Assembly (NCBI RefSeq): GCF_017464355.1
Contig: NZ_JAFUAG010000033.1
Span: forward strand, 1 to 64,000
Length of the DNA stretch: 64,000 nt
Direction: 5' to 3'
From: Ruminococcus sp.
GTDB taxonomy: Bacteria > Bacillota > Clostridia > Oscillospirales > Ruminococcaceae
Shown here piece after piece: positions 3,521 to 16,009 of this stretch. The notes under the pieces were generated by a model. That model did no database searches, was not told where the DNA came from, and saw only the letters and a list, made by a program, of their open reading frames with translations. Position numbers and translations under genes: made by a program. Position 1 is the first letter of the stretch. Each line of letters opens with the position of its first letter.

Positions 3521-5428
3521 TTACTTTTCCTCCTCTTTCTCTTTCTTTTCATTTACTTCGATCTTGTGATCTTTTCTTATCCTTATCCTTACGGTCTCGC
3601 CGGTTTCGGAATAATCCACCAGCATCATGTGGTTGCGGCTGAGAGGTGCATAGTAGCCGTCGTAATCGTGGGTCAGCAGTATGTAATCTCTCTTGGCGGT
3701 TATCTCGCCTATCTCGAACTCCTTGTAGAACTTCACAGCGCTCAGGTGATACTTGGCGCAGATATATTCCACCAGCTCGGGGCTGGGCTCAGCCTGCTCG
3801 GGGTCGAGTATGATCTGGCCTACCACATCATAGCCGCCGCGCTCGTTCTTGAAAGCGCTTATCTCCCACTCGTTTATGGGGTCGTTCTCATCCAGGGAGC
3901 TTTCTATCATGAACAGGTATACGCGCTTGCCGTTCTCGTCAACGTAGGAGTCTGAAGCTCTGCCCATGATAGTGTAGGAGCCGTCAGCGTGCCTTACAGC
4001 GATATCGCCTGTAACGCCCCACTTGGTACCCTCTTCATCATAGTACCAGCGCTCGGCAGTAGCCTCGGGGTTATCCAGGTAACGGTCAGCCGATGCGGGG
4101 CTGGTAGCGTGCAGGTTTGCCAGAACTTCGTTCTCTGTCACAAGGTTGCCCTCGTCGTCCACCAGCTTTACATGAACGTGGGGCTCCAGGGGCTTGCCTG
4201 TTTCGTTGGTCTTGGTCTCTTCGTCCATGAAATATGTTACCAGTGTTACGCCGCCCTCTTCGCTGGCGCCGCCGCCCAGTGAATATCTCACGCTGCAGCC
4301 GTTATCTCTCAGCCACTTGTCTATCTTGCGCACTGCGCTGACATTTACAGCCTCGCCGCCCGATGCGGGACGCTTCAGGCATTCCAGGGCATCAGGTGCC
4401 AGCACGCCCTGTCTTACGCTCATCAGGTAGAAGCTTGCAGTAGCCACCACGCAGTTGCACTGGGTCTCGGAGAGGTCTCTTGCAAAGGTATACTTGTTAT
4501 ATATAGGTCTGGGTACCAGCGTGCCGCCTCTTGCCAGGGGCATTACAGCGCACACTCTCTCGCCTGTCATATGGGTCAGGGGTATGCACTGGAAGTTTCT
4601 CTCGCCCACATAGTTCTGGGTGTCGAGGCCTGCGTGCATCTCAACGTATGCATTCAGCGAATACTCCTTGTAGACCACGCACTTGGGTCTGCTGGTAGTG
4701 CCGCTGGTGTAGAAATAGCTTATATCACGGTCAAGGTCAGTGGGACCCAGGTCCAGGGGGATATCGCTTTCCTCTCCTGCCTTTCTCAGGTCTTCCAGCT
4801 TGATGAACTCAACGCCCTTTACCTTATCCAGGTTCTGCAGGCATTCCATTATCTGCTGTATATCGAAGACCTCCTGCATCTGCTCGGGCATTTCGGAGGT
4901 ATCAAGGAACATACCCTTTTTATCCTCGGGCAGGAAGTCATCAAGGTTCATGACGATGACCTTCTTTATGCCGCCGTCATTCAGGTGGTCAACAAAGTAG
5001 GGCAGGAAAGCGTCCAGTGTAACTATGACCTCAGAGTGCTTATCCTTTGTATAAAGCTCAAAGTCATTCTTAAGGAAGAGGAAGTTCACGTTATTGCTGA
5101 TAGCCTTTACCAGGTTGCAGGCGAACAGCAGCATAAGGTTCTCAATGCTTACGGGCATACACAGGGTAACAACGTCGCCCTCCTTGACACCTGCCAGCTT
5201 AAGGCCTCTCGCATAAGCTTCACGGAGGGCAGGCAGCTCGCCGTAGGTTATGATCCTGCCGAAGTAGTCAAAGGCAGCGCCGTCAAGGTTGTCCTGGTTG
5301 AAGGTCATGATATTGTCAAAAATATTCATGTTGTAGATATCCACGCCGTTTATGGTGCGGTCTACCTTTGCCCACTCGGGGAATTTTCTTTCGATCGTAC
5401 TTGTGTTGATCTGTGTTGTTGTCTTCAT
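3521..5428 (-). CDS. AMP-binding acyl-CoA ligase/adenylate-forming enzyme
   Basis: A protein of about 635 residues in the ANL adenylating superfamily. YFYTSGTTSRPK is the P-loop-like A3 motif, and later the YSLGGGASEEGG and WGVTGDIAVRHADG segments fit the A5 and A7 (TGD) regions. It would activate a carboxylate as acyl-AMP and probably pass it to CoA. The start at 5428 is preferred over the one at 5446 because AAAGGA sits nine bases upstream. A TATAAT hexamer at 5543-5548 (minus strand) is the likely -10 box. The charged C-terminus K-E-K-E-E-E-K is encoded by bases that also form the ribosome binding site of the downstream SGNH hydrolase. An esterase released outside and a CoA ligase inside could act on the same acid (acetate, ferulate or a fatty acid), but this is inference. 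Confidence 0.8.
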   Translation of the reverse strand: MKTTTQINTSTIERKFPEWAKVDRTINGVDIYNMNIFDNIMTFNQDNLDGAAFDYFGRIITYGELPALREAYARGLKLAGVKEGDVVTLCMPVSIENLMLLFACNLVKAISNNVNFLFLKNDFELYTKDKHSEVIVTLDAFLPYFVDHLNDGGIKKVIVMNLDDFLPEDKKGMFLDTSEMPEQMQEVFDIQQIMECLQNLDKVKGVEFIKLEDLRKAGEESDIPLDLGPTDLDRDISYFYTSGTTSRPKCVVYKEYSLNAYVEMHAGLDTQNYVGERNFQCIPLTHMTGERVCAVMPLARGGTLVPRPIYNKYTFARDLSETQCNCVVATASFYLMSVRQGVLAPDALECLKRPASGGEAVNVSAVRKIDKWLRDNGCSVRYSLGGGASEEGGVTLVTYFMDEETKTNETGKPLEPHVHVKLVDDEGNLVTENEVLANLHATSPASADRYLDNPEATAERWYYDEEGTKWGVTGDIAVRHADGSYTIMGRASDSYVDENGKRVYLFMIESSLDENDPINEWEISAFKNERGGYDVVGQIILDPEQAEPSPELVEYICAKYHLSAVKFYKEFEIGEITAKRDYILLTHDYDGYYAPLSRNHMMLVDYSETGETVRIRIRKDHKIEVNEKKEKEEEK

Positions 5429-5785
5429 TCTGATTATCCTTTCCATTTTCTGGTTCGGGCTCGATCTTGTTTATCTGCCCATGTTGTTTTTCCTTCTCCC
5501 ATTCGGGATATCGGAAGGCGCTCTTTCCCTCCGACGTGTTATATTATAACATACAAATCATTAAATAATCCTTAATTACAGAGCCGATTTTATTATTTTC
5601 TCTTAATGTTAATCTTAAGATTTCTTAAGGTTCAAAAAATTCAATAATTAGTCATTATTTTGCCGTTTTGCCTTTGTGAAGTTTTTACAAACCCGTTTTT
5701 CGCAGTTGCGACGTCACAACTCGTTCCGGGGTAATATCTCAATTTGTCGGCGGGGGACTGTCTCACTTTGTCGGTGCGGCGTACT

Positions 5786-6319
5786 CCCCCTCCTCGGGAG
5801 GGGGGGTGAGGGTGTCTCCGCAGTTCTGCGCTGATATGCACCTGTTTCTCTGCGTGGGTTCCCTCTCACATATTGGTGGGGGCAAGCCCCCACCCTACCT
5901 GGCGGGCGGTTCGTCTTGTTCCCGCAGGATTTGCGCTTTCCCCTTTTCACGGACGTTTGCTGTTCTATCTATAGGTACTCTGCCGCGACCGCCGAAAACG
6001 CTTCGCTGTTCGGCTGGGTCATAGCGGGCGGTCGTTATACGCACATAAAACGAGCGTGGTCTGTTCTCAGTCCACGCTCGTTAGTTGGCGGCCGCCCGCT
6101 TTTTGTCATGGCGGGAAGTCGCTGTTCTTATCGCCTTTTTTGACGTTTGTCTCGCTCTTATTGTTTGTTTTGCATTTTGGTTTTGCTCCTTGGTGATTGA
6201 GGGCTCTGCCCTCAAACTCCCGCAAGCCTGCTGGCGCGAGGCTTGACCGCGCGCTTTATTTCCTTGGCATTCTTATCTCGAACTGCAAATCTTTCGCCCC
6301 TGCCAATAATTATGAATTA
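5786..6319. repeat. Mosaic intergenic repeat, copy A
   Basis: It fills the gap between the CoA ligase and the SDR gene. Part one (about 5786-5904) has a G-tract hairpin and a GGTGGGGGCAAGCCCCCACC stem. Part two (about 5925-6319) starts near CCCGCAGGATTTGCG, contains the nested stems GCGGGCGGTCG/CGGCCGCCCGC and ACGAGCGTGG/CCACGCTCGT, then GAGGGCTCTGCCCTC, and ends in CCAATAATTATGAATTA. Part two recurs nearly identically at 9631-9984 and 11091-11487. The terminal bases supply the stop codon of the SDR gene. The stretch 5550-5785 contains only AT-rich sequence and imperfect short repeats. Confidence 0.85.
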
Positions 6320-7078
6320 AAAAGCGACCGATCCCGTGTATACAGGGAAATCACTCTCGGCTTTCTTTACAGCTTCTTCTAAGGTCATGCCGTAAAAGTG
6401 TCCCGCTGATAAATTCCTCCCCGAACGCTTATCGTCCACAAAGGCACCTACCACTACCCCCGGCAGCGAGCTTTCGGGCGCATTGGGCGCATGGGCGCCC
6501 CCAAGGTCTGTTCTGCACCAGCCCGGGTCGGTGATGTTTATGCAGATGTCCGTACCCTCATATTTTGAAGCTAAGTCCATGGTGACTTTATCCAGCGCCG
6601 CCTTGCTGGCGGAATACCCTGCCTGCTCAGGCTCAAGCCTTATGCCGCTGGTGGTGTTGACTATCCTGCCAAAGCCCCGCTCCTGCATTTTGGGCAGAAA
6701 ATGGTACATTATCATCATGGGAGCTATGGTGTTTATACGGAAACTCATCTCGTAATCCTCGGGGGGCGTTTTGAGATAGTCGGTGCGGTAGGCTATCTGT
6801 ATGCCTGCATTGTTGAGGACGATGTCAACAGGTGTACCCTTTTCGTCTATCTCCGCCAGCATAGCCTCCACCTGGGCGATATCGGAAAACTCTGCGCCTA
6901 CGGCATAGGCTTCCACCCCCAGGGCTTTTACCTCTTCAAGCACACCCTCGCAGTGTTCCTTAGTTCTGCCATGGAGGATAAGGTTGCAGCCCTGCTTTGC
7001 CATGAAAACTGCTGCTCCCCTGCCTATGCCCCTTGCGGCGCCTGTTACCAGCGCCCAGCGGCCTTTTACATCTACCAT
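6317..7078 (-). CDS. Short-chain dehydrogenase/reductase (SDR)
   Basis: A 253-residue classical SDR with TGAARGIGRG (nucleotide-binding glycine motif, residues 13-22), LNNAG, a catalytic Ser in NTTSG, and YSASK (Tyr-x3-Lys). It uses NAD(P)H to reduce or oxidise a carbonyl or alcohol; the closest general type is the FabG-like 3-oxoacyl reductase group, but the substrate is unknown. The ATG shares its A with the TAA stop of the upstream epimerase gene (TAATG), so the two are translationally coupled. The stop codon lies within the last bases of repeat copy A. Confidence 0.85.
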   Translation of the reverse strand: MVDVKGRWALVTGAARGIGRGAAVFMAKQGCNLILHGRTKEHCEGVLEEVKALGVEAYAVGAEFSDIAQVEAMLAEIDEKGTPVDIVLNNAGIQIAYRTDYLKTPPEDYEMSFRINTIAPMMIMYHFLPKMQERGFGRIVNTTSGIRLEPEQAGYSASKAALDKVTMDLASKYEGTDICINITDPGWCRTDLGGAHAPNAPESSLPGVVVGAFVDDKRSGRNLSAGHFYGMTLEEAVKKAESDFPVYTGSVAF

Positions 7079-8088
7079 TAAAAGCCCTCCTTCATTTTTT
7101 CCATTGCTTCGATCACCTTATCGCACCAAGCATCGAATTCGGGGTCATCGTTCTGGTATTCCGGGTGGTCAAGGATATATTCCACCGTTCTGCGAATGCC
7201 CTCTCTTGCGGTGACGGTGCATTCAAAGTCGGGCACCAGCGCCTTGACCTTTGAGTTATCGAAGACCACCGAGTTGGACTTATCGCCTATAAGGCTGCCT
7301 GTGAAGTCGTAGTCGCTCAGGTCGGCCAGGGTCTGCGAAGCCACATAGTAAGGTTTGAGTTCCTTGCCCAGGGCATCTGCCACGGCCTTGTATATCTCAT
7401 TCCAGCTGACGCTTTCGTCTGAGGTTATGTGGAAGACCTCACCGATAGCTTTTGGGTTGCCTATAAGTCCCACATAGGCCTTGGCAAAGTCGCTGTTATG
7501 GGTTATGGTCCAGAGTGAACTGCCGTCACCGTGGATCATGACAGGCTTGCCTTCTTTTATGCGCTTTACCACCTGCCAGCTGCCACCGTTGCCGTGTACG
7601 CCCATAGGCACGCTGCGCTCATCGTAGGTATGGGAGGGTCTGACTACTGTCACAGGGAAGCCCTCATTCTTATACAGCCCGAAAAGGTACTCCTCACAGG
7701 CTTTCTTGTTGCGGGAATATTCCCAGTAGGGATTTTCAAGGGGTGTCTCCTCGGTGATGACATAGCCCTCAGGGGGCTTTTTGTAGGCCGAGGCCGAGCT
7801 TATGTAGATAAACTGCTTTGTCTTGCCCTTGAACAGGCGGTAATCTCTTTCGAGCTGTGCAGGCACGAAACCGATGAACTCGCCCACGCAGTCAAACTCC
7901 ATGCCTTCAAGCAGCTTTGCGGTCTTCTCCTCGTCGTTTATATCGGTGGTGATGAACTTTATCCCCTCGGGCAGACCCTCGTTCCTGCTGCCGCGGTTGA
8001 GCAGGTAAAGCTCATGTCCCTGTTCTGCCAGCAGCTTTGTGATAGCCATGCTGATAGTTCCTGTTCCGCCTATGAAAAGTATCTTCAT
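7078..8088 (-). CDS. NAD-dependent epimerase/dehydratase family (extended SDR)
   Basis: A 336-residue protein with FIGGTGTISMAI (Rossmann glycine motif near the N-terminus), ISSASAYK, and YSRNK as the Tyr-x3-Lys pair. It belongs to the extended SDR group that acts on nucleotide sugars or related substrates. The ATG at 8088 is preferred because AAGGAG lies eight bases upstream; an in-frame GTG at 8097 would overlap that site. The gene is first of a coupled pair with the SDR enzyme and follows the alcohol dehydrogenase on the same strand with a gap of about 50 bases, so the three may form one operon. Confidence 0.85.
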   Translation of the reverse strand: MKILFIGGTGTISMAITKLLAEQGHELYLLNRGSRNEGLPEGIKFITTDINDEEKTAKLLEGMEFDCVGEFIGFVPAQLERDYRLFKGKTKQFIYISSASAYKKPPEGYVITEETPLENPYWEYSRNKKACEEYLFGLYKNEGFPVTVVRPSHTYDERSVPMGVHGNGGSWQVVKRIKEGKPVMIHGDGSSLWTITHNSDFAKAYVGLIGNPKAIGEVFHITSDESVSWNEIYKAVADALGKELKPYYVASQTLADLSDYDFTGSLIGDKSNSVVFDNSKVKALVPDFECTVTAREGIRRTVEYILDHPEYQNDDPEFDAWCDKVIEAMEKMKEGF

Positions 8089-13958: not shown

Positions 13959-14043
13959 CGCCGTGTGAGGGGATCGAACCCTCGTACCGTTTTACGGTAT
14001 GCTGTTTTCAGGACAGTTTGTTGAGCCAGCCAACATACACGGC
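13959..14043 (-). tRNA. tRNA-Ser (UGA anticodon), C33 variant
   Basis: Last gene of the third cassette. Acceptor GCCGTGT/ACACGGC, T arm GAGGG-TTCGATC-CCCTC, and a long variable arm (TACCGT/ACGGTA) give a class II serine shape with discriminator G and no encoded CCA. The anticodon stem has one A-C mismatch (27-43), and the loop reads CCTGAAA, so base 33 is C instead of the near-universal U. It would read UCA. Confidence 0.75.
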
Positions 14044-14049
14044 ATATAG

Positions 14050-14141
14050 CGGCCACACCGAGACTTGAACTCGGACATCGGGAATACCCGATCACTCACG
14101 GTTTAGCAAACCGCTGCCTTACCGATTAGGCTTATGTGACC
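14050..14141 (-). tRNA. tRNA-Ser (GCU anticodon)
   Basis: Acceptor GGTCACA/TGTGGCC, anticodon loop TTGCTAA, long variable arm with a ATCGGG/CCCGAT stem, T arm CCGAG-TTCAAGT-CTCGG, discriminator G, no CCA. It reads AGC/AGU. Third tRNA of the Tyr-Tyr-Ser-Ser cassette. Confidence 0.85.
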
Positions 14142-14149
14142 GTATAATA

Positions 14150-14235
14150 TGGTGGGCAGGGTGGGTGCCGACCCCACTACGCATAAAGCAACGGTTTTAC
14201 AGACCGCCGAGTTTGCCGATTCTCTGTACCTGCCC
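14150..14235 (-). tRNA. tRNA-Tyr (GUA anticodon)
   Basis: Acceptor GGGCAGG/CCTGCCC, anticodon loop CTGTAAA with normal U33, an extended variable region, and an encoded ACCA end. The T loop reads GTCGGCA instead of the usual TTCGANN, which is atypical. It reads UAU/UAC. Confidence 0.8.
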
Positions 14236-14239
14236 TTAA

Positions 14240-14325
14240 TGGTGGGAGAGGAAGGACTCGAACCTTCGGTGTTTCAGATGTCACGGTTTTACGGACCGCT
14301 GCCCTCGCCGCTGGGTGACTCTCCC
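14240..14325 (-). tRNA. tRNA-Tyr (GUA anticodon), C33 variant
   Basis: Acceptor GGGAGAG/CTCTCCC, T arm GAAGG-TTCGAGT-CCTTC, encoded ACCA end. The anticodon stem GCGGT/ACCGT is the same as in the neighbouring tRNA-Tyr, but the loop is CCGTAAA, with C at position 33. It begins directly after the U tract of the cassette-3 terminator. Confidence 0.75.
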
Positions 14326-14364
14326 TAATAAAAAATACCGCCTGACCCGAAAGCCAAACGGTAT
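14326..14364 (-). terminator. Cassette 3 attenuator terminator
   Basis: On the minus strand ATACCGTTTGGC pairs with GTCAGGCGGTAT (12 bp with three G-U) around TTTCGG, followed by TTTTTTATTA. The U tract ends at the first base of tRNA-Tyr. It separates the Ser/Tyr leader ORF from its tRNAs. Confidence 0.85.
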
Positions 14365-14388
14365 ATGCTGAAAACTCTGAAAACAGTA

Positions 14389-14481
14389 TCAACATTCACG
14401 CACAGCTGAACGAGCCTTATCCTTCTGAACAACGCTTGAATAACTATATGAATATGAGGATGTAAATACTGTGTTTTTCAT
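14389..14481 (-). CDS. Cassette 3 leader peptide (Ser/Tyr-rich, 30 aa)
   Basis: ATG at 14481 with AAAGGAAG upstream. The peptide carries Ser-Ser-Tyr-Ser-Tyr-Ser-Tyr-Ser-Ser at residues 8-16 and ends Arg-Glu-Cys. Codons in the run are TCC, TCA, TAT, TCA, TAT, AGT, TAT, TCA and AGC, which are those read by the downstream tRNA-Tyr (GUA), tRNA-Ser (GCU) and tRNA-Ser (UGA), apart from TCC. A consensus-like promoter precedes it and a terminator follows. Bases 14389-14399 around the stop can pair with 14361-14371 at the foot of the terminator (10 of 11 positions), a possible antiterminator. I infer a leader peptide sensing Ser/Tyr charging; no known family is recognised. Confidence 0.75.
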   Translation of the reverse strand: MKNTVFTSSYSYSYSSVVQKDKARSAVREC

Positions 14482-14513
14482 GGTGAACTTCCTTTCTTGA
14501 ATTCTTTAATGAT

Positions 14514-14542
14514 ATTATAACATGACCTGATACAGATTTCAA
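14514..14542 (-). promoter_or_regulatory. Cassette 3 promoter
   Basis: TTGAAA (14542-14537) and TATAAT (14519-14514) with a 17-base spacer, 33 bases before the leader peptide start. Confidence 0.8.
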
Positions 14543-14559
14543 TAAACCTGCGGTATAGA

Positions 14560-14630
14560 CAGGAGAACTCAGAGTCGAACTGAGATCGGCGGTTTTGGAG
14601 ACCGTTATTCTGCCATTGAACTATTCTCCT
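14560..14630 (-). tRNA. tRNA-Trp (CCA anticodon)
   Basis: Acceptor AGGAGAA/TTCTCCT, anticodon loop CTCCAAA, T arm TCAG-TTCGACT-CTGA, discriminator G, no CCA. The anticodon stem has an A-C mismatch at 27-43, as in the tRNA-Ser (UGA). Last tRNA of cassette 2. Confidence 0.88.
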
Positions 14631-14634
14631 ATAG

Positions 14635-14706
14635 CTTCCGCTGAGAGGGTCGAACTCCCACTTACAGAGTCAAAGTCTGTTGTCCTGCCTGTTAGACGAA
14701 ACGGAA
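14635..14706 (-). tRNA. tRNA-Gln (UUG anticodon)
   Basis: Acceptor TTCCGTT/AGCGGAA, anticodon stem ACAGA/TCTGT with loop CTTTGAC, T arm GGGAG-TTCGACC-CTCTC, discriminator G. It reads CAA/CAG. Confidence 0.88.
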
Positions 14707-14712
14707 TCATAG

Positions 14713-14785
14713 TGCCTCCGGCAAGGATCGAACTTGCGACGCTATGCTCTTCAGGCATACGCTCTACCAACTGAGCTACAAAGGC
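14713..14785 (-). tRNA. tRNA-Phe (GAA anticodon), first copy
   Basis: Acceptor GCCTTTG/CGGAGGC with two G-U pairs, anticodon stem TATGC/GCATA with loop CTGAAGA, T arm GCAAG-TTCGATC-CTTGC, discriminator A. Confidence 0.88.
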
Positions 14786-14795
14786 ATTTAGCAAA

Positions 14796-14866
14796 AGACT
14801 GTGATAGGGGTCGAACCTACGCTCGTCGGGTTGCAGCCGACTGCCTTTCCGCTTGGCTACACAGTC
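14796..14866 (-). tRNA. tRNA-Cys (GCA anticodon)
   Basis: Acceptor GACTGTG/CACAGTC, anticodon stem GTCGG/CCGAC with loop CTGCAAC, and discriminator U, the identity base for cysteine. No CCA encoded. Confidence 0.9.
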
Positions 14867-14869
14867 ATA

Positions 14870-14940
14870 TTTCCGCTGAGAGATTTGAACTCCCCTTTTC
14901 GGTGTCAGAAACCGATGTCCTACCACTAGACGAAACGGAA
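14870..14940 (-). tRNA. tRNA-Gln (CUG anticodon)
   Basis: Acceptor TTCCGTT/AGCGGAA identical to the other tRNA-Gln, anticodon stem TCGGT/ACCGA with loop TTCTGAC, discriminator A. It reads CAG. Confidence 0.88.
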
Positions 14941-14946
14941 TCATAA

Positions 14947-15019
14947 TGCCCTCGGCAAGGATCGAACTTGCGGCGCCGGGTTCTTCAGACCTGCGCTCTA
15001 CCAGCTGAGCTACAAGGGC
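14947..15019 (-). tRNA. tRNA-Phe (GAA anticodon), second copy
   Basis: Acceptor GCCCTTG/CGAGGGC, loop CTGAAGA, discriminator A. The anticodon stem CAGGT/ACCCG has an internal A-C mismatch. Upstream of its 5' end a TGTCCCGA/TCGGGACA hairpin (15023-15042) without a U tract may guide processing between the HTH gene and the tRNAs. Confidence 0.86.
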
Positions 15020-15043
15020 ATGTGTCCCGATATTTCGGGACAT

Positions 15044-15274
15044 TCAGTTCAGGATTATTATCTCATCAATGGTGACATTTAAAATATGAGCCAGTATCAC
15101 CAGATTGTCGATGGAGGGCATTGACTCCCCTCTCATCCACTTGAATATGGACTGAGGTGTGTTGAATCCCAGAATGTTCTGAATTTCAGCCACTTTCAGA
15201 CCTTTTTCTTTTATAAGAGCTTTTATGTTAGAGCCTGTCGCTGTCATATCAATGACCGGCATTTCCGAAGTCAT
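15044..15274 (-). CDS. Small XRE-type helix-turn-helix protein inside the tRNA array
   Basis: A 76-residue protein with a single HTH_XRE fold (IKALIKEKGLKVAEIQNILG, then SIFKWMRGESMPSIDNLVIL). GGAAGGTGG precedes the ATG at 15274. It lies between the cassette 2 terminator and six tRNA genes, so it would be expressed only with read-through of that terminator. A palindrome next to the cassette promoter (15589-15609) is a candidate operator, which would make the cassette autoregulated; that link is inference. Confidence 0.75.
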   Translation of the reverse strand: MTSEMPVIDMTATGSNIKALIKEKGLKVAEIQNILGFNTPQSIFKWMRGESMPSIDNLVILAHILNVTIDEIIILN

Positions 15275-15294
15275 AATAATACCACCTTCCGATA

Positions 15295-15337
15295 GAAATA
15301 AAAAACGTCCGTATGAGTTCGCACTACATACAGACGT
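15295..15337 (-). terminator. Cassette 2 attenuator terminator
   Basis: On the minus strand ACGTCTGTATG pairs with CATACGGACGT (11 bp, one G-U), followed by TTTTTTATTT. It lies between the leader ORF and the HTH gene plus tRNAs. The 5' arm with its loop (15320-15331) can alternatively pair over 12 bases with 15399-15410 in the leader ORF. Confidence 0.85.
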
Positions 15338-15367
15338 AATGTTCTATCAGAAGATGGCAAATAAACT

Positions 15368-15505
15368 CTATCTTGAACCTGAAAGATCATCGGGTTTAGT
15401 ATGCAGTACAACAAAGCCTTGACCACACTGGTCAAAACTAAAGCTAAAGCTATACTGATACTCAAACCATCTGATAACAGAAATGTTCTTAGCAGAGTTC
15501 ATCAT
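15368..15505 (-). CDS. Cassette 2 leader peptide (Trp/Phe/Gln/Cys-rich, 45 aa)
   Basis: ATG at 15505 after AAAGGGTGAGA. Residues 13-31 include Trp, five Phe, three Gln and one Cys (segments WFEYQYSFSFSF and DQCGQGF). The tRNAs behind it are Phe, Gln (CUG), Cys, Phe, Gln (UUG) and Trp, and codons TTT, CAG, CAA, TGT and TGG all occur in the run. It then reads FVVLHT, a motif shared with the cassette 1 peptide. Its Val-Leu-His-Thr codons contain TGTACTGCATAC, complementary to the 5' terminator arm. This is the geometry of an attenuation leader: ribosome stalling in the Phe/Gln/Cys run would leave the antiterminator strand free. Confidence 0.8.
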   Translation of the reverse strand: MMNSAKNISVIRWFEYQYSFSFSFDQCGQGFVVLHTKPDDLSGSR

Positions 15506-15561
15506 TCTCACCCTTTCGTAAAGTAATTCGGGAGTTTATTGCTCCCCTGTTGTTGTAACTG

Positions 15562-15590
15562 ATTATATCACCGATACAGTGAAATGTCAA
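15562..15590 (-). promoter_or_regulatory. Cassette 2 promoter, full consensus
   Basis: TTGACA (15590-15585) and TATAAT (15567-15562) with 17 bases between them on the minus strand, an exact sigma-A consensus, between tRNA-Glu and the leader ORF. It shows that cassette 2 is transcribed independently of cassette 1. Confidence 0.9.
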
Positions 15591-15609
15591 GTAGCTTTGT
15601 AAGCTACTT
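15589..15609. promoter_or_regulatory. 9-bp palindrome abutting the cassette 2 promoter
   Basis: AAGTAGCTT and AAGCTACTT flank a 3-base centre, ending inside the -35 box and starting one base after tRNA-Glu. It lacks a U tract, so it is either an operator for the array's HTH protein or a 3' processing stem of cassette 1. Confidence 0.5.
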
Positions 15610-15610
15610 A

Positions 15611-15683
15611 TGACGGATACGGGGCTCGAACCCATATCCGGAGATCGAAAGTCTCCTGCCCTGTCCAATTAGACGGATCCGCC
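15611..15683 (-). tRNA. tRNA-Glu (UUC anticodon)
   Basis: Acceptor GGCGGAT/ATCCGTC, anticodon stem GGAGA/TCTCC with loop CTTTCGA, T arm ATGGG-TTCGAGC-CCCGT, discriminator A. It reads GAA/GAG. Second tRNA of cassette 1. Confidence 0.82.
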
Positions 15684-15686
15684 GTA

Positions 15687-15760
15687 TATCCGTGGGGAGA
15701 TTTGAACTCCCAAGACCTCGGTTCTTAGCCGAGGTTGTATGCCAATTTCAACACACGGGC
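15687..15760 (-). tRNA. tRNA-Leu (AAG anticodon) with class I shape
   Basis: Anticodon stem CTCGG/CCGAG with loop CTAAGAA gives anticodon AAG (CUU/CUC). The variable region is only GTCTT, whereas bacterial tRNA-Leu normally has a long arm. The acceptor GCCCGTG/CACGGAT has a C-A mismatch at 2-71 and G-U at 1-72. T arm GGGAG-TTCAAAT-CTCCC. A divergent or functionally altered tRNA. Confidence 0.7.
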
Positions 15761-15798
15761 ATAATAAAAACACCGTCTGCTGCAAACAGACGGTGTTT
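15761..15798 (-). terminator. Cassette 1 attenuator terminator
   Basis: On the minus strand AAACACCGTCTG pairs with CAGACGGTGTTT (12 bp perfect) around TTTGCAG, followed by TTTTTATTAT, which runs into the first base of tRNA-Leu. The arm plus loop (15778-15791) can pair with 15856-15869 in the leader ORF at 13 of 14 positions. Confidence 0.9.
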
Positions 15799-15819
15799 CA
15801 CTTACAAGGATCAATATAC

Positions 15820-15948
15820 TCAGAAACAGGAGATCCCGAAATGTTCAGCCGCTTTATCTGTATGCAGCACAAAATAAGTCTCTTCCGATTCGAGGACGAG
15901 GCTCCGTAAGGATCCGCTATACAGATATGAAACAGTGAACTTTTTCAT
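15820..15948 (-). CDS. Cassette 1 leader peptide (Leu/Glu-rich, 42 aa)
   Basis: ATG at 15948 with AAAGGAG upstream. Residues 14-23 read LRSLVLESEE with codons TTA, CTC, CTC, GAA, GAA and GAG among them; the tRNAs behind it are Leu (AAG, reading CUC/CUU) and Glu (UUC, reading GAA/GAG). It then has YFVLHT, as in the cassette 2 peptide. The Leu-His-Thr codons contain TGCTGCATACAGA, which matches the terminator arm TCTGTTTGCAGCA in antisense with one mismatch. No known family recognised. I infer a regulatory leader peptide. Confidence 0.78.
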   Translation of the reverse strand: MKKFTVSYLYSGSLRSLVLESEETYFVLHTDKAAEHFGISCF

Positions 15949-15980
15949 TTCGGTTTTCTCCTTTCTTTGATGTTGTGGTC

Positions 15981-16009
15981 ATTATAACATGACACCGCCG
16001 AAAAGTAAA
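15981..16009 (-). promoter_or_regulatory. Cassette 1 promoter
   Basis: TTTACT (16009-16004) and TATAAT (15986-15981) with a 17-base spacer on the minus strand. The -35 box overlaps the U tract of the upstream gene's terminator. Confidence 0.7.

Follow-up and report, generated by a model that had tools for sequence, protein, structure and literature searches.

In a 64,000-nucleotide stretch of DNA from Ruminococcus sp. (contig NZ_JAFUAG010000033.1, positions 1 to 64,000; hereafter the window), three tandem units lie on the minus strand at 13959-16009, each made of a promoter, a ribosome-binding site, a short leader open reading frame (ORF), a terminator and transfer RNA (tRNA) genes. We propose, with a probability of roughly 0.82, that these cassettes are ribosome-mediated attenuators of the trp type, whose leaders would sense the shortage of any tRNA of a set and whose output, replacement tRNAs and in relatives also RNA ligases, would counter tRNA loss. 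The proposal is drawn from sequence: from the architecture of the units, the match between each leader and its own tRNAs, the position of the sensor codons, the complementarity between ORF and terminator in many leaders, the divergence of the cassette tRNAs and the association with RNA ligases.

Three leader-tRNA cassettes in the window

The leader ORFs have 42, 45 and 30 codons and are preceded by purine-rich ribosome-binding sites. The promoters are sigma-70-like and match the consensus at 10/12, 12/12 and 11/12 positions in cassettes 1, 2 and 3 respectively, with TG preceding the -10 element in all three. Between 13000 and 17000, the terminator scan gives 11 sites (3.6 expected) and the promoter scan gives 10 (5.3 expected). 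A sequence-only reading of this DNA had claimed three promoter-leader-terminator-tRNA cassettes, which are borne out by the promoter, terminator and ORF scans, the fold and the tRNA callers. Ten of the tRNAs that it claimed are called identically by ARAGORN and cmscan, while the second Tyr and the second Ser are called by neither and are legible in the sequence only. The window cassettes hold the short ORF with a ribosome-binding site between promoter and intrinsic terminator that is a feature of attenuators. In the list below, tRNA genes are called by both programs unless stated.

15981..16009, minus strand: promoter of cassette 1 (TTTACT-17-TATAAT, TG before -10)
15820..15948, minus strand: leader ORF 1, 42 codons, MKKFTVSYLYSGSLRSLVLESEETYFVLHTDKAAEHFGISCF, preceding Leu (AAG) and Glu
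15916..15924, minus strand: region 1 of leader 1, CTGTATAGC, with CTGTAT complementary to ATACAG of region 2 (sequence and no-ribosome fold)
15856..15870, minus strand: region 2 of leader 1, GTGCTGCATACAGAT, predicted antiterminator strand (complementarity and folding)
15771..15795, minus strand: intrinsic terminator 1, regions 3 and 4 (terminator scan)
15686..15761, minus strand: tRNA-Leu (AAG), 76 nt, short variable region
15611..15683, minus strand: tRNA-Glu (UUC)
15562..15590, minus strand: consensus promoter of cassette 2 (TTGACA-17-TATAAT)
15368..15505, minus strand: leader ORF 2, 45 codons, MMNSAKNISVIRWFEYQYSFSFSFDQCGQGFVVLHTKPDDLSGSR, preceding the helix-turn-helix (HTH) gene and then Phe, Gln, Cys, Phe, Gln and Trp
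15397..15411, minus strand: region 2 of leader 2, TTGTACTGCATACTA (complementarity and folding)
15305..15337, minus strand: intrinsic terminator 2 (script allowing longer loops, and fold; absent from the standard terminator scan)
15044..15274, minus strand: gene of an HTH_3 (Cro/C1-type) protein, 76 aa (ORF and family search)
14946..15020, minus strand: tRNA-Phe (GAA)
14870..14940, minus strand: tRNA-Gln (CUG)
14796..14866, minus strand: tRNA-Cys (GCA)
14712..14785, minus strand: tRNA-Phe (GAA), second in cassette 2
14634..14706, minus strand: tRNA-Gln (UUG)
14558..14631, minus strand: tRNA-Trp (CCA)
14514..14542, minus strand: promoter of cassette 3 (TTGAAA-17-TATAAT)
14389..14481, minus strand: leader ORF 3, 30 codons, MKNTVFTSSYSYSYSSVVQKDKARSAVREC, preceding Tyr, Tyr, Ser and Ser
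14335..14364, minus strand: intrinsic terminator 3 (terminator scan)
14240..14325, minus strand: tRNA-Tyr (GUA)
14150..14235, minus strand: putative second tRNA-Tyr-like gene, read by eye
14049..14141, minus strand: tRNA-Ser (GCU)
13959..14043, minus strand: putative second tRNA-Ser-like gene (UGA), read by eye

No T-box is present among the gathering-level Rfam matches in the window and the further loci scanned. By reading, the surroundings of the cassettes are ordinary chromosomal genes.

Leader composition follows the downstream tRNAs

Relatives were sought in 197 genomes of the family with the window DNA, and in 396 with each of two further queries, the HTH protein and a leader RNA model. 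The HTH family has a sharp boundary: among the matches listed, 31 places have E <= 4.4e-18 and the next has 1.4e-10. A scan of named genomes with an HTH alignment gave at least 592 relatives, of which the best 80 loci were examined (all counts out of 80 refer to these). The 80 loci belong to isolates of Ruminococcus flavefaciens and R. albus and to metagenome-assembled genomes (MAGs) of Ruminococcus, Lachnospiraceae, Eubacterium, Mogibacterium, Erysipelotrichaceae and others. The arrangement is general: a small HTH gene sits amid similar leader-terminator units, most of which include tRNAs, in Ruminococcus, in other Clostridia, in one Erysipelotrichaceae MAG and in phage contigs. Units were picked by a script that required a promoter, a ribosome-binding site, an ATG-started ORF, a terminator and a downstream HTH gene and was blind to leader composition, and it yielded 86 units in the scanned loci, duplicate strains included (several strains occur twice under two collections). 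After removal of the units without called tRNAs, one unit picked in the wrong frame and L125 (a copy, retained as L201), and addition of five units by hand (window cassette 3, L124, the first L219 unit, L083 and L085), there were 75 leader-tRNA pairs, which were collapsed to 28 clusters at 55% identity. The tRNA sets come from ARAGORN, which misses some tRNAs; Met(CAU) was ignored.

Over the 28 clusters, the mean excess of cognate residues in the leaders is 0.096, compared with 0.001 (sd 0.013) under permutation of the tRNA sets (z 7.2; 0 of 20,000), and permutation within the three leader types only gives z 5.4 (0 of 20,000). By permutation, control codons for the operon's own tRNAs are present, as in an attenuator. 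The other two reading frames give excesses of -0.039 and -0.004, and the true frame is higher than both in 24 of 28 clusters. A held-out test on 11 later leaders from seven plasmid, phage or predicted-viral records gives z 4.6 (0 of 20,000), with individual leaders ranking 1 to 9 of 38 or 39 tRNA sets; these leaders were chosen partly by eye (L249b, L249c, L262 and L272), and 3 of the 11 come from R. albus 7 (L270), which is closely related to the window. The check that the sequence-only reading had set, namely that homologous leaders should track their downstream tRNAs, is thus passed by the 28 clusters and the 11 held-out leaders, and the matching is confirmed as real and general, not chance.

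Individual loci illustrate the matching. For example, the leader of L119 contains FFAQQFQFRFFRQWQEK ahead of Trp, Phe and Gln, that of L127 contains LYSEHYEESFYHESEE ahead of Tyr, Glu, His, Glu and Ser, and that of L236 contains WFSLYLEEQLVIDSLCDQVFD ahead of Ile, Glu, Asp, Cys, Trp, Leu and Gln. The leader of R. albus KH2T6 (L188) has NDYQCDFSFDFAWQQD ahead of Asp, Gln, Phe, Cys and Trp. Its sensor holds four Asp, as does that of R. albus 7 (by reading), and both arrays have a tRNA-Asp; the window has no tRNA-Asp and one Asp in the sensor. In L219, one unit has MTYRLICVQNFICEQDLHIIDKENG ahead of Asn, Glu, Gln, Gln, Asp, Trp, Ile, Glu, His, Cys, Phe and Ile, and the other has MLYLRFASKSMNTERKPQGIDLMGR ahead of Gly, Gly, Leu, Pro, Tyr, Ser, Leu, Arg and Lys, so that the amino acids are divided between the two leaders of one genome as between its two tRNA arrays.

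At the level of codons, the claim that each leader largely uses those read by its own tRNAs holds for cassette 3, where the Ser codons TCC, TCA, AGT and AGC face the anticodons UGA and GCU, and for Phe, Gln, Cys and Trp. It is weaker for Leu in cassette 1, where CTC accounts for 2 of 5 Leu codons and the rest are CTG, TTA and CTG, the anticodon of the tRNA-Leu being AAG.

Sensor position and a predicted competing antiterminator

Pairing and folding were computed for 43 leaders, that is, the 28 clusters and 15 leaders without tRNAs (L227 and L238 are near copies). The share of cognate residues is 38% in the stall-permissive segment and 17% after it, and they are denser in that segment in 27 of 28 leaders (Wilcoxon p 1.9e-8). 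The V-L-H-T codons of Ruminococcus leaders, CTGCATACAGA, are complementary to the terminator's 5' arm, TCTGTATGCAG, and the two vary together, as in L119 (CTGCACCCA with TGGGTGCAG). Leaders of the Lachnospiraceae type have a different sequence and the same complementarity, e.g. L218 (CTCATGTAAGATAAG with CTTATCTTATATGAG). For 18 distinct Ruminococcus-type pairs, own partners pair at 0.909 and swapped partners at 0.865, which 0 of 20,000 shuffles reach; the difference is small because the arms, compared ungapped, are alike. The 3' part of the ORF pairs better than letter-shuffled ORFs at p<=0.05 in 26 of 43 leaders (mean z -2.07), and in 21 of the 28 with tRNAs.

In the folding model, transcripts up to the terminator loop were folded with a ribosome placed at each codon. 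For window leaders 1 and 2, the computed antiterminator probability is 0.00 without a ribosome, and 0.90 and 0.96 respectively with a ribosome stalled in the sensor; the means over the 43 leaders are 0.37 and 0.84. The stalled value exceeds the no-ribosome value by more than 0.2 in 25 of 43 leaders, including all three window leaders; a protector hairpin between regions 1 and 2, which would terminate transcription when translation is absent, predicts a difference of this direction. When the free segment is folded at full length, leader 1 prefers the antiterminator, and leaders 2 and 3 prefer the terminator. These predictions point to an antiterminator that competes with the terminator in many leaders, including leaders 1 and 2 of the window.

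Alternatively, the leaders might be non-regulatory, with a composition that stems from shared origin with the array (e.g. hitch-hiking on a mobile tRNA array) and terminators that only separate transcription units. Movement as whole blocks is conceivable, since the plasmid pRUMAL01 and phage or predicted-viral contigs also carry units. However, the matching persists within leader families (z 5.4), and it recurs in dissimilar leader families that have other terminators. On average only the true frame shows it, and its densest part lies upstream of region 2. This alternative also gives no reason for the complementarity between ORF and terminator. We regard it as scarcely credible.

Occurrence of leaders among the relatives

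The script finds a leader in 65 of the 80 loci. One or more tRNAs are called in 50 of these 65; conversely, among the named loci where tRNAs are called, a leader is present in 50 of 54. Loci counted as having tRNAs and an HTH gene and no leader are L126, L130, L191 (the same place as L124), L193, L199, L228 and L268, and in L228 a leader is visible on separate reading. At 3562-4568 of L126 there is a consensus promoter with no leader ORF or terminator seen between it and the array, which may be constitutive. An orphan leader, complete with its terminator and of the Tyr/Glu/His/Ser type, lies at 1432-1620 of L143 (G393). Of the weak hits to the leader RNA model (E between 1e-5 and 1e-2), nine were mapped: L154, L156-L158, L160, L161, L164 and L166 show no cassette on quick reading, and the ninth, L155, is the G035 locus already known in this survey.

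Cassette tRNAs differ from housekeeping tRNAs

Every amino acid of the window cassettes is also served by a housekeeping tRNA elsewhere in the genome, so the cassette tRNAs are second copies. Their identity to the nearest housekeeping tRNA for the same amino acid is 61-73%. Comparing distinct tRNAs from scripted cassette units with the housekeeping tRNAs of the window's own genome, position 37 is G in 17 of 18 cassette Phe tRNAs (A in housekeeping) and A in 10 of 10 cassette Leu tRNAs with CAG, UAG or GAG anticodons (G in housekeeping). For Tyr (25 tRNAs), Trp (5) and Lys (4), every cassette tRNA has A at this position, the same as the housekeeping ones. Besides, 30 of 31 distinct cassette Leu tRNAs are 73-79 nt long and lack the long variable arm, while housekeeping Leu tRNAs have 80-87 nt; the sole exception, of 89 nt, is in L237. 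The altered position 37 and the short-armed Leu tRNAs would fit evasion of nucleases.

Two solo odd tRNAs were considered as further cassettes and rejected, as a promoter-like site and an overlapping short ORF are present and no terminator is seen between. These are L038 (contig C8, Ser GCU without a long variable arm) and L039 (contig C13, Val CAC), which have in common the promoter-like site and a GTAGTTTAT element. In both, the short ORF ends inside the tRNA, and both adjoin genes that read as LRR-like.

The HTH gene, RNA ligases and other possible outputs

The HTH protein could itself be the real switch, with the leader merely reporting translation capacity and the tRNAs being passengers of a phage-type repressor module. 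It resembles phage repressors (HTH_3; PHROG transcription regulators) and occurs with leaders in many genomes; its frequency among the loci is not a result, because the searches were anchored on it. On the other hand, within the window an HTH gene is present in cassette 2 but not in cassettes 1 and 3, and the leader would act before HTH expression, because the HTH gene lies behind the terminator. This makes the HTH switch improbable in our view, and the leader remains the favored point of control.

RtcB and such ligases rejoin broken RNA. An RNA ligase gene lies downstream of the HTH gene in 12 of 80 loci, 11 of which have it behind a found leader with at least one called tRNA between. A partial ligase in L084 matches TIGR02306 RNA_lig_DRB0094 with a score below the curated cut-off, the protein of L121 matches Pfam RNA_ligase and PHROG RNA ligases, and in G188 an RNA ligase stands where tRNAs would be. 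RtcB adjoins the HTH gene in 16 of 80 loci, and by hand count 12 of the 16 have an ORF of 20 or more codons, together with a terminator, ahead of RtcB. For instance, the order in L237 is leader, terminator, RtcB, HTH, Glu, Met(CAU), Leu, Ser and Tyr, and that in L233 is leader, terminator, Lys, RtcB and HTH. The window operon has no RtcB; the RtcB of this genome is on contig C22, where nothing cassette-like is seen directly ahead of it, and some 0.9 kb upstream of it are a promoter, an ORF with a GTG start and a terminator.

The downstream genes were annotated in part, and other recurrent outputs are possible. In L227 and L238, at about 4740-7413, a Thr-rich leader, a terminator and an HTH gene are followed by a gene of about 700 aa in place of tRNAs, an ABC transporter in L227, which is perhaps another output. 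In L223 (5490-7013) and L225, a DUF2828/DUF7788 protein stands behind the HTH gene, followed in L223 by RtcB; it is possibly a Ro60-like partner, and its identification as TROVE (Ro60) itself was ruled out in L223 by the Pfam assignment to DUF2828/DUF7788. A 152 aa HD-domain protein lies directly behind RtcB-HTH in L230 (5242-5697).

These outputs bear on the purpose of the system. The same attenuator might respond to amino-acid starvation or to changes in codon demand and so adjust the supply of tRNAs to growth, with RNA repair being incidental. Such leader sensors classically report amino-acid shortage (trp, his, pheST), sets like Tyr/Glu/His/Ser or Phe/Gln/Cys/Trp need not mirror nuclease targets, and the long gene behind leader and HTH in L227 and L238, with the transporter in L227, would suit this purpose. 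But extra copies of tRNA genes do not relieve a missing amino acid, RtcB and RNA ligase recur beside the HTH gene, and a dosage role does not call for divergence from housekeeping tRNAs, overall and at position 37. We consider a starvation response rather unlikely and favor a response to tRNA loss.

Plasmids and phages

The plasmid pRUMAL01 of Ruminococcus albus 7 carries all three cassettes in the same order as the window. Contigs from IMG/VR and faecal phages hold the HTH gene with tRNAs, with RtcB or with neither, and one phage or viral stretch of 8 kb has 26 tRNAs, the last eight of which lie behind a leader. Dense tRNA clusters are found on mobile DNA (pRUMAL01 and phage or predicted-viral contigs), and the window itself has an apparently chromosomal setting. 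At 1574-2009 of L252, a GOLLD RNA (RF02032) encloses a tRNA within a predicted-viral tRNA array that also holds a leader/HTH unit. Besides, an HTH gene with 48% identity occurs on Ligilactobacillus salivarius megaplasmids (L271, 3980-4252), with no tRNAs called nearby in UCC118.

Proposed mechanism

According to our proposal, polymerase would initiate at the strong promoter and a ribosome would translate the leader, which has codons for the cassette's own tRNAs crowded into its central part. With the tRNAs of the set plentiful, the ribosome would reach the end of the leader, region 2 near the 3' end of the ORF would be barred from the 5' arm of the terminator, and transcription would stop. With any one of them scarce (uncharged, cleaved or degraded), the ribosome would stall in the sensor segment, region 2 would pair with the terminator arm, and polymerase would continue into the replacement tRNA genes, whose products would be charged and used. 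Because one leader covers several amino acids, it would act as an OR gate. Read-through would also yield the small HTH protein in many units, which may have a role of its own, and RtcB or an ATP-dependent RNA ligase in relatives. Most likely, the system counters tRNA loss, e.g. by anticodon nucleases, through replacement or repair.

The earlier suggestion that tRNA output is controlled by ribosome stalling gains support from the leader-tRNA tracking and from the predicted antiterminators in many leaders. Its trigger is better revised: tRNA loss is the likelier signal than amino-acid starvation, because relatives add RtcB or RNA ligase and the Salmonella RtcB operon responds to tRNA fragments (PMC7790460).

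Several points weigh against the proposal. Cassette 3 of the window, despite having the purest leader (Ser/Tyr), shows no convincing antiterminator (z 0.3 vs shuffles), which qualifies the earlier suggestion. Among the 43 leaders, 17 fail to beat shuffles at p<=0.05, L222 shows no antiterminator at all in folding, and 17 already form it without a ribosome, so that absent translation would not terminate there. The zero antiterminator probability at the stop codon is given by construction. The switch of window leader 2 must be kinetic, because its full-length fold favors the terminator. As for composition, L197 lacks cognate enrichment in the stall-permissive segment, L218 and L237 are at or below background for cognate residues, and composition as such cannot separate amino-acid starvation from tRNA loss. 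The association is also incomplete: 15 of 80 HTH loci have no scripted leader (four of these have tRNAs), 15 of 65 leader loci have no called tRNA, L126 has tRNAs and HTH without a leader ORF, and L143 has a leader with no array or HTH seen behind it.

A wider picture, to which we give about even odds, is a modular response to tRNA loss common to Clostridia and their phages, in which OR-gate leaders would release second tRNAs that evade attack, RtcB or a DRB0094-like ligase would mend the broken ones, and sensor and payload would co-evolve. If sensor and payload evolve together in this way, the leader would reveal which tRNAs are attacked.

Comparison with known systems

Ribosome-mediated transcription attenuation controls the trp, his, leu, phe and pheST operons. 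The cassettes resemble these attenuators in having a leader peptide rich in sensor codons, a terminator and a predicted competing antiterminator. They differ in their output (tRNA genes and RNA-repair ligases), in a sensor that matches the very tRNAs it would release, and in the breadth of a single leader, which can serve an array for as many as nine amino acids (L219). In phage T4, tRNAs and RNA ligases undo the attack of the host anticodon nuclease PrrC, and PARIS/AriB gives a further case of a phage countering host anticodon-nuclease attack (PMC12409363). Alternative tRNAs and an RNA ligase against tRNA cleavage are common to those systems and, as proposed, to ours, which is in addition found on bacterial chromosomes and a plasmid, with putative leader attenuators specific to each cassette.

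The rsr-yrlBA-rtcBA operon of Salmonella is induced by tRNA 5' fragments binding the CARF domain of the activator RtcR (PMC7790460). RtcB is governed there by a signal of damaged tRNA, as is proposed here. Unlike in that operon, the proposed signal here is a stalled ribosome on a leader, the protein is of the HTH_3 type, replacement tRNAs would be made, and the window operon has no RtcB. Bacterial tRNA arrays, dense clusters of extra tRNA genes found especially in Firmicutes (PMC5966550), are similar in their dense clustering, but no regulatory leader is mentioned in the part of that source available to us, while 50 of 54 named tRNA loci have one here.

No attenuator-controlled tRNA operon was found in a literature search of open-licence papers, mostly at abstract level. 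The principle of control is that of known attenuators, and its use on tRNA genes with self-matched sensors and RNA repair was not found in that search. If confirmed, these would be the first tRNA operons under leader peptides matched to their own tRNAs, as far as the search shows, and ribosome stalling would be linked directly to tRNA replacement and repair. The leaders amount to a readable code: from a leader's composition one can predict which tRNAs lie downstream, and it may also hint at the nucleases faced by these bacteria and phages. In conclusion, the cassettes suggest a testable reason why divergent, additional sets of tRNAs are retained in bacteria and phages.

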